DNA of 64,000 nt from Planctomycetota bacterium (GTDB lineage Bacteria > Planctomycetota > Planctomycetia > Planctomycetales > Planctomycetaceae): assembly GCA_018242525.1 (NCBI GenBank), contig JAFEBS010000042.1:9473-73472 (forward strand), read 5' to 3'. Each line of letters opens with the position of its first letter. The stretch's first letter is position 1. The position numbers were made by a program, and so were the translations under genes. Shown piece after piece: positions 51,859 to 58,983 of this stretch. Below the pieces are notes generated by a model. That model made no database searches and was not told where the DNA came from. It saw nothing but the letters and a program-made list of their open reading frames with translations.

Positions 51859-52224
51859 ATGTCTTTTGTATTGTCGGAAAAGCTGGATGGTAAACTGATC
51901 GAAGTCCAAGTGACCGGGAAACTGACCAAGGAGGCGTATGAAGAATTTGTGCCCATCACTGAAGCGGCCATACAGAAGTACGGAAAAGTTCGCATCCTGT
52001 TCATCATGCACGACTTTCATGGCTGGGATGCCGGGGCGGTGTGGGAAGATCTGAAGTTCGATCTGAAACATTTCACCCACATTGAACGTCTGGCGATCGT
52101 GGGAGAAACCAAGTGGGAACACGGGATGGCCATCTTCTGCCGTCCGTTTACGACTGCCAAAATGAAGTATTTTGACCGCACGAATCTGGAGCAGGCACGG
52201 GCCTGGATCCAGGACGACGCGTGA
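51859..52224 (+). CDS. STAS/SpoIIAA-like domain protein
   Basis: 121 residues. FVLSEKLDGKLIEVQVTGKL, then TKEAYEEFVPITEAAIQ, VRILFIMHDFHGWDAGAVWE, RLAIVGETKWEHGMAIFCRP (FTTAKMKYFDRTNLEQA) are the pattern of the SpoIIAA-like (Pfam PF11964) family, a STAS-fold domain related to lipid-binding SEC14 proteins. The usual role is unknown; a small-molecule or lipid-binding regulator is plausible. ATG 51859 has GGAGG at 51850-51854; the frame from 51817 is rejected. It is followed by a receiver-domain gene. Confidence 0.82.
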   Translation: MSFVLSEKLDGKLIEVQVTGKLTKEAYEEFVPITEAAIQKYGKVRILFIMHDFHGWDAGAVWEDLKFDLKHFTHIERLAIVGETKWEHGMAIFCRPFTTAKMKYFDRTNLEQARAWIQDDA

Positions 52225-52253
52225 CATTCAACGATGGTTGGAGGGCTTCTCGA

Positions 52254-52625
52254 ATGGCTGGGAATCTGCTGATCGCGAATCCGGACAGCTTTACGACTGA
52301 TCGGATGCGACAGTACTTCGTCAAGCGGGGTTATCGGGTGGATTGCGCCAACGACGGATTGCAATGCTGGGAGAAACTCCGTCGAATGTCTCCGTCCATC
52401 TTGATCCTTGATGCAAATCTTCCCTGGGGCGGTGGTGACGGGGTGCTGGCTTGCATGCGCTCGTATCCGGTCTTTTCACGGATACCCGTGATTCTGGTCA
52501 CAGATCCGCTTTCCCGAATGCATAACGTCAGCGACCCTGTCGTCCGCTGTCTCCAGCGTCCGTTCGAGATGAAGAGACTGTTCGACGAAGTCGCCCTACT
52601 GCTGTCGACCAGATCGGGAGTTTAA
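52254..52625 (+). CDS. Degenerate response-regulator receiver domain protein
   Basis: 123 residues, a stand-alone REC fold with no output domain: LLIANPDSFTTDRMRQYFVK, then RGYRVDCANDG; phospho-acceptor strand SILILDANLPWGGGDGVL; PVILVTDPLS; and VVRCLQRPFEMKRLF. The acidic pair after beta-1 is reduced (NPD) and the conserved Lys before Pro is Arg, so phosphorylation chemistry may be altered. ATG 52254 has GGAGGG 8 nt upstream; a GTG at 52221 overlaps the previous stop (GTGA) and is the alternative. It is adjacent to and downstream of the STAS-like gene and upstream of the ammonium-sensor kinase region. Confidence 0.75.
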   Translation: MAGNLLIANPDSFTTDRMRQYFVKRGYRVDCANDGLQCWEKLRRMSPSILILDANLPWGGGDGVLACMRSYPVFSRIPVILVTDPLSRMHNVSDPVVRCLQRPFEMKRLFDEVALLLSTRSGV

Positions 52626-53646: not shown

Positions 53647-57432
<3,786 letters not shown>

Positions 57433-57434
57433 AA

Positions 57435-57594
57435 GAAACGGGGAAGCACTTGGGACGCGTCCAAGATTACTCCCGATAGCTGGCCCAGGAATTGGCGGAC
57501 ATGCCCAAGTTCGCGGACCGCGTTGACGACGAATTTGTCCATTTGGTGTACCAGACCAGTCCCCTGCACGACATCGGCAAAGTCGGCAGAATTG
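57435..57594 (+). pseudogene. HD-GYP phosphodiesterase fragment with in-frame stop
   Basis: Directly after the kinase stop, in another frame, the sequence reads ETGKHLGRVQDYSR, then TAG (57477-57479), LAQELADMPKFADRVDDEFV, HLVYQTSPLHDIGKVG. The ETGKHL...RV..Y, then SPLHDIGKVG, is the core of HD-GYP domains of c-di-GMP-degrading response regulators (the HD pair is in LHDIGK). It lacks a start, has an internal stop, and after 57594 the frame becomes unrelated until TGA 57636-57638. The rest of the domain, including GYP, is missing. A decayed relic, probably left by a deletion. Confidence 0.75.
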
Positions 57595-57699
57595 TCTGTC
57601 CAATTTGCTGGCGCTTCGGGCCCAGGCGGAATAAATGACGGCCACGGATCAAACACGGATGTCACACGGAAAAGACCAACTCCACCGGCTGACAATAAC
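57595..57699. other. Short non-coding remainder with degenerate repeats
   Basis: Contains ccacggatcaaacacggatg, then tcacacgg, a degenerate direct repeat of (a)cacggat units, between the HD-GYP relic and the convergent Tat-exported gene. No gene seen. Confidence 0.45.
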
Positions 57700-58983
57700 T
57701 TACTCAACGTCCATCAGTCCGGCCAGTTTCAGCCGAGTTTGAGGATGGTTGGCGAATGGCCAGTCCGTCGGCTGGTAGGCAATCGCAAATTCCGGAGTGT
57801 CATAGCGCTGGTAGTCATTGGTGAGGCTGTGCATCAGGCGGTCCAGGACGCCGGTTGTTAACAGCGTTCTCTCGACGGGATAGACCGGCTTGCCGGTGTG
57901 AATCGTTTCTTCGATGGCCCGCAGCAGTTGCGCGAAGTGTCCGAACGGAGGTTCATTCTGCAATCGAATCCAGGTTGCCGAGGGCTTGTCTTGCCCTTTG
58001 ATTTTCGCGGCGAACGCGAATTCGGGAGTCAGTGCGTCTGTCATGGCGACGGCGGATCTGAGGCCGTCGCGATGTTCGCACAGAAACAGCGCCGCATCCT
58101 TTTGCTTCGTCCATTCGGGCCCGGCGGACGGATTCCTGGGGAGCGTGCCGAGGGCCGCCTCGAACAATTCCAGTGACCAGCGCTTCTCGGTGGCTGCCCG
58201 ATAGATCGCCTCACCGCGCAACGCCTGCACCGAGACGATTCCCGACTCGCCCCCGCGTCGACGTTCAACCATCGCCTGGTGTGCTTCCAGGGCATGGATC
58301 CCATACACCTCCAGTCCACTGTAGCCGACAGTGACCGCTTCCTCCAGTTCCTGGTTGCGATCCAGTTCCAACGGCGGGAACCGCCAGGCGAGTGGAACCG
58401 ACGAACCGGCCAGAAACGGGATTTTTCGCTCCCTCGCCAACGCGTACATGAAGCTGGCGTCTGCCCATGAATGCGCAAGATGTTTGTCGTTGAACACGGG
58501 AACCGACTTGCCCCCACGCTGCAGCGCCGCAGCAATCTCTTCGAAGAACCGTCGTCGCGGATACAGGTGCTGGTGAGTGTCCGGCGTATGGGGATAGTCG
58601 CCATGCTCACCAATGCTGATCACTCCAGCCACTTGAACCTGATCGGTTCCCAGCGTAATCGCTTCGTCGATGGTCTTCGCGATCCGGAATTGGAATCGCT
58701 CTGACATCGAATGACTGAGATCACCGGAGCCCACTTGATCGACGTAGAGGGAAACCAGCTTCAGGTCAGGTCCAAGTCCTCCGTCTTGTTGCCATCCTTC
58801 CAGGATTTTCCCGATCAGGACGTCCGAATGACTCCACTTTCGATAGACGGTCACGACCGCCGCCACGGGCAGTTTCGGACGCCCTTCCGCGCACAACACA
58901 GGAGTCTCGAACAATCTCGTGACCGTGGATGCAGCAGCGGTGCTGACCAGGAATTGACGCCGATTGACAAGTTGATGTGCCAT
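57700..58983 (-). CDS. Tat-exported protein of unknown function
   Basis: 427 residues. Tat signal NRRQFLVSTAAASTVTRLF. The mature part begins PKLPVAAVVTVYRKWSHSDV, LIGKILEGWQQDG and contains GVISIGEHGDYPHTPDTHQH, GKSVPVFNDKHLAHSWADAS and IPFLAGSSVPLAWRFPPLEL. I recognise this as a planctomycete-conserved secreted protein, often near oxidoreductases, but cannot name a reaction; conserved His/Asp/Glu residues suggest metal binding. It is convergent with the ammonium-kinase locus and lies 102 bp downstream of the molybdoenzyme gene, possibly in one operon with it. Confidence 0.75.
   Translation of the reverse strand: MAHQLVNRRQFLVSTAAASTVTRLFETPVLCAEGRPKLPVAAVVTVYRKWSHSDVLIGKILEGWQQDGGLGPDLKLVSLYVDQVGSGDLSHSMSERFQFRIAKTIDEAITLGTDQVQVAGVISIGEHGDYPHTPDTHQHLYPRRRFFEEIAAALQRGGKSVPVFNDKHLAHSWADASFMYALARERKIPFLAGSSVPLAWRFPPLELDRNQELEEAVTVGYSGLEVYGIHALEAHQAMVERRRGGESGIVSVQALRGEAIYRAATEKRWSLELFEAALGTLPRNPSAGPEWTKQKDAALFLCEHRDGLRSAVAMTDALTPEFAFAAKIKGQDKPSATWIRLQNEPPFGHFAQLLRAIEETIHTGKPVYPVERTLLTTGVLDRLMHSLTNDYQRYDTPEFAIAYQPTDWPFANHPQTRLKLAGLMDVE

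Follow-up and report, generated by a model that had tools for sequence, protein, structure and literature searches.

Remnant of a REC-HD-GYP regulator gene behind an Amt hybrid kinase of a planctomycete suggests a disrupted ammonium-to-c-di-GMP phosphorelay

Directly behind the stop codon of a gene for an Amt-bearing sensor kinase, a planctomycete genome carries a short stretch reminiscent of an HD-GYP domain. What is this stretch, how did it arise, and what might it tell us about the output of the kinase? We addressed these questions in a window of 64 kb (the whole stretch of DNA that was analysed, to which all coordinates refer unless a contig is named) and in the genomes of related bacteria.

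The kinase gene (53647–57432, plus strand) is intact and encodes 1261 aa. According to Pfam, the protein comprises an Amt domain (residues 11–400), PAS, HisKA (H602), HATPase, two receiver domains (REC1 and REC2) and Hpt (H1195); all the catalytic motifs are present, and the fusion of Amt to HisKA and HATPase places it among the Amt-fused sensor kinases. The prototype of this group is Ks-Amt5 of Kuenenia stuttgartiensis, an ammonium sensor histidine kinase for which ammonium-dependent phosphorylation was shown and the ligands of the two-ammonium site were named (PMC5764959). Five of the seven ammonium-site positions of Ks-Amt5 are identical in the window kinase (Q24, E31, N47, D50, and T106, which is T109 in Ks-Amt5), while S109 stands for T112, which is a conservative change, and F51 for T51. 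The same residue set, F and S included, is found in 8qj3. Among the 122 Amt columns invariant in 12 other aligned kinases, the window kinase departs at one, and most of its departures outside the Amt domain are common to its two nearest relatives, G011 and G012, which belong to the same genus and carry a kinase about 68–70% identical. Drift of the kinase after the loss of a partner was considered as well, and nothing beyond conservative changes was found. As to the other Amt proteins of this genome, one on contig C59 (70240–71433 of that contig, in a frame of 512 codons) has ammonium-site residues of the receptor type and leaves no room for a kinase, so that the signature alone is no proof of a kinase-coupled receptor; another, on contig C16, has none of these residues.

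Read from 57435, in a frame other than that of the kinase (whose TGA stop lies at 57430–57432), the DNA encodes ETGKHLGRVQDYSR*LAQELADMPKFADRVDDEFVHLVYQTSPLHDIGKVG, where the asterisk is an in-frame TAG at 57477–57479, and then passes into non-homologous sequence. The homologous part (57435–57588, plus strand; 51 codons plus one base, 154 nt) is 76% identical (E=7e-22 for the G012 protein) to the REC-HD-GYP regulator encoded behind the orthologous kinase in G011 and G012, and, among solved structures, the c-di-GMP phosphodiesterase 4r8z is matched as well (E=2e-6). The Pfam HD model hits it at E=0.0025, under the gathering score because the fragment is short. In a six-frame comparison with the G012 regulator, it scored 206, whereas the highest of 1000 shuffles reached 52, and no other part of the window came as high. 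The results thus bear out the preliminary description, which had recognized here an HD-GYP relic in another frame with one in-frame TAG. The span it had given, 57435–57638, stands only up to 57588, where the homology to the regulator ends; beyond this point, the segment 57589–57635 is followed, at approximately 57636–57673, by one copy of a dispersed short repeat (CACGGATCAAACACGGATGTCACACGG) that has about 40 further matches in this genome. A frame in this region ending in NLLALRAQAE* (57589–57640, another frame) was considered as a displaced C-terminus of the regulator and rejected, as it did not match the 3′ ends of the orthologous genes, and RNA structure predicted for 57589–57700 was not better than that of shuffles.

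The origin of the relic is further specified by a tree of 54 proteins, in which the relic, although it occupies only 15% of the columns, clusters with the kinase-linked regulators of G011 and G012 (99/92). Unlinked paralogues form a separate clade, and two genomes without a REC-HD-GYP gene next to the kinase (G008 and G269) have only members of that clade. When compared to G012, the relic shows a pN of 0.14 and a pS of 0.87, indicating that, after the split from G012, the gene was under constraint at the protein level most of the time and died late.

A comparison with G012 and G011, where the REC-HD-GYP gene is intact and its start codon overlaps the stop codon of the kinase by one base (TGATG), allowed us to locate the lesions. 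At the left junction (57430–57434, plus strand), about 426 nt are missing, from the regulator start codon to codon 142, so that the start, the receiver domain with its phospho-acceptor aspartate and the linker have gone together. This deletion starts right behind the kinase, since the latter retains its stop and its C-terminal length. At the right junction (57588/57589, plus strand), the homology stops after GGC-A: the HD of HDIGKVG is kept, and everything after this motif, including the HHExxDGxGYP core, is gone. The repeat copy mentioned above lies about 50 bases past this junction. The relic is accounted for by two deletions plus a nonsense codon, in line with the earlier suggestion that the regulator is now deleted.

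If the relic descends from a partner of the kinase, intact pairs should exist in relatives, which the preliminary description had named as the test. At the level of the class, 36 of 397 genomes matched the kinase at E<=1e-230, the window's own genome counted; the relatives tallied came from these kinase matches, from regulator searches and from one more family member (G027), in which the kinase match is partial and the adjacent REC-HD-GYP gene was seen. In 31 of the 36 relatives, the kinase is immediately followed by an intact REC-HD-GYP gene in the same orientation; these 31 represent six families and 16 genera, and the two genes often overlap or nearly touch. The kinase bears an Amt domain in 28 cases over the six families. 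A further public contig, JAEUIN010000226.1 (titled Planctomycetaceae bacterium MAG), which was retrieved separately, carries the same pair; it was the sole clear named pair added by a scan of genome contigs with the kinase alignment, in which generic kinase and Amt motifs otherwise dominated. The exceptions are G008 and G269, with no REC-HD-GYP neighbour; G728, with the kinase at a contig edge; G622, where the Amt and kinase parts lie in separate frames close to the contig start; and G661, which has a REC-PAS-GGDEF-EAL gene behind the Amt hybrid kinase (locus L244, 2505–4646). The last case places another c-di-GMP enzyme in the same position and thus fits the theme of an Amt kinase with a c-di-GMP output.

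All the linked regulators extracted possess HDxGK and HHExx[DN]GxGYP, and the receiver aspartate motif was detected by pattern in all except that of G015, where LDWDMP was read by eye. They are distinct from the main unlinked clade in the tree. The intact G012 orthologue consists of a receiver and an HD-GYP domain and matches 4r8z over the latter (E=5e-49). With their motifs intact, the linked regulators of the relatives are putative c-di-GMP phosphodiesterases.

Taken together, these data lead us to conclude, with a probability of about 0.85, that 57435–57588 is a pseudogene remnant of a REC-HD-GYP regulator, the second gene of a two-gene unit with the Amt kinase that would form an ammonium-to-c-di-GMP phosphorelay. 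As is established for Ks-Amt5, ammonium bound to the Amt domain would alter how active the fused histidine kinase is; the phosphate would travel from H602 via a REC aspartate and H1195 of the Hpt domain to the receiver of the linked regulator, whose HD-GYP domain would then hydrolyse c-di-GMP. In the window genome, the regulator was most probably inactivated after the split from G011 and G012 by the deletion of about 426 nt, the second deletion removing the core, and the nonsense codon, so that the pathway would be cut at its last step and the kinase would now be an orphan or act on another regulator. The former pairing of the kinase with a neighbouring c-di-GMP regulator, raised as a possibility in the preliminary description, is supported by the intact pairs, and the conserved pair, as genomic evidence, strongly supports its further proposal that ammonium sensing is tied to c-di-GMP turnover.

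Five GGDEF and several HD-GYP genes remain in the window genome, which means that c-di-GMP signalling as such has not been lost and that another partner for the kinase is possible; in particular, a REC-HD-GYP protein encoded on contig C8 might serve it, a counterpoint to the idea of a lost partner. A single receiver-domain protein is encoded upstream of the kinase on the same strand (52221–52625). As a replacement partner it was rejected, since it shows only a weak REC match and nothing comparable precedes the kinase in those relatives that were mapped.

One may argue that the relic is real and its position uninformative, with the regulator serving hybrid kinases in general and the Amt kinase signalling mainly elsewhere. 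Indeed, related REC-HD-GYP genes lie behind kinases without Amt in G013, G493 and G291, so that this output is not specific to ammonium; genes of the unlinked clade are found behind genes ending in Hpt, and the Ks-Amt5 group has no REC-HD-GYP neighbour. However, the conservation of the adjacency in the 28 Amt-bearing cases, with genes so often overlapping or nearly touching, and the separation of the linked regulators from the main unlinked clade make this explanation unlikely. Far less probable is an assembly error hiding an intact regulator in the living genome: the assembly is a draft in 99 contigs, but the three separate lesions lie within one contig 119,782 bases long, and the missing parts did not turn up a second time in the genome, where the best other match to the full regulator covers only the HD-GYP part at 56%. 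Least credible of all is that the leftover frame is still expressed as a functional short peptide, for instance from an in-frame ATG behind the TAG that opens a frame of 45 codons. The frame behind the TAG is open to 57635 and the pN of the relic is far under its pS, but such a low ratio can date from before the loss of the regulator, and the leftover frame is interrupted, has no receiver and no GYP core, and ends in non-homologous sequence.

The pairing suggested by the remnant has to be placed among the Amt receptors already described. Ks-Amt5 resembles the window kinase in the fusion of an Amt receptor domain to a HisKA kinase, and differs in its length of 679 aa, in the lack of PAS, REC and Hpt, and in T51 where the window kinase has F51. 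Its response regulator was termed yet to be identified (PMC5764959), which was repeated in 2026 (PMC12918730). No REC-HD-GYP gene lies next to the Amt kinase of G145, whose Amt domain is identical to that of Ks-Amt5, or of the seven relatives examined whose Amt kinase is similar, so that the present pair leaves the question of the Ks-Amt5 regulator in anammox bacteria unanswered. The solved structures closest to the window Amt domain (E=8e-113), with the same ammonium-site residues, are 8qj3/8qpf (644–661 aa), which we take to be Sd-Amt1 with a diguanylate cyclase; such a protein would be a direct fusion to a domain synthesizing c-di-GMP, unlike a kinase with a separate degrading enzyme. Amt-PAS-GGDEF-EAL fusions were found in Marinomonas sp. 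TW1, Vreelandella stevensii and Pseudomonas neustonica (loci L107, 4920–8057; L109, 4896–8351; L118, 4791–8372). They likewise couple an Amt receptor domain to c-di-GMP enzymes, though within one protein, with no kinase or phosphorelay and with GGDEF-EAL in place of HD-GYP; thus, the coupling of Amt receptors to c-di-GMP recurs. Unlike REC-HD-GYP regulators, of which the structures 4r8z and 4mcw show the HD-GYP part, the remnant in the window has neither a receiver nor a GYP motif. Fusions of Amt receptors to a kinase or to GGDEF-EAL are therefore already known, and a separate phosphorelay with an HD-GYP output appears to be a variant; the literature searched, which covers few subscription journals, contained no description of an Amt kinase paired with REC-HD-GYP. 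The conserved pair supplies the hybrid Amt kinases of this bacterial class with a concrete candidate partner, and it would tie external ammonium to c-di-GMP breakdown.

The fate of the pair differs within the genus. In G012 (locus L232, 5196–7964) and G011 (locus L233, 8060–10828), the kinase is 922 aa long, with nearly the whole Amt domain deleted in frame, and the REC-HD-GYP gene behind it is intact. The dN/dS between these two genomes is about 0.11 for the remaining kinase and 0.02 for the regulator, indicating that both are under purifying selection. The module is whole in G007, regulator-less in G008 and in the window genome with its relic, and sensor-less in G011 and G012. A further eight genomes of this genus, each at least 94% complete, have no kinase match at E<=1e-200. 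It seems, from these gene contents, that the window species lost the output, whereas its closest relatives lost the sensor domain and retained the relay and the output. On balance, we favour the view that many Planctomycetia carry a dedicated ammonium phosphorelay controlling c-di-GMP breakdown, which within one genus has been dismantled from opposite ends. Such opposite losses in sister lineages represent a natural experiment on how a phosphorelay comes to be split between its sensor module and its output module. In G334 (locus L067), several frameshifts, possibly a sequencing error, break the Amt part of the kinase, and the regulator behind it is intact.
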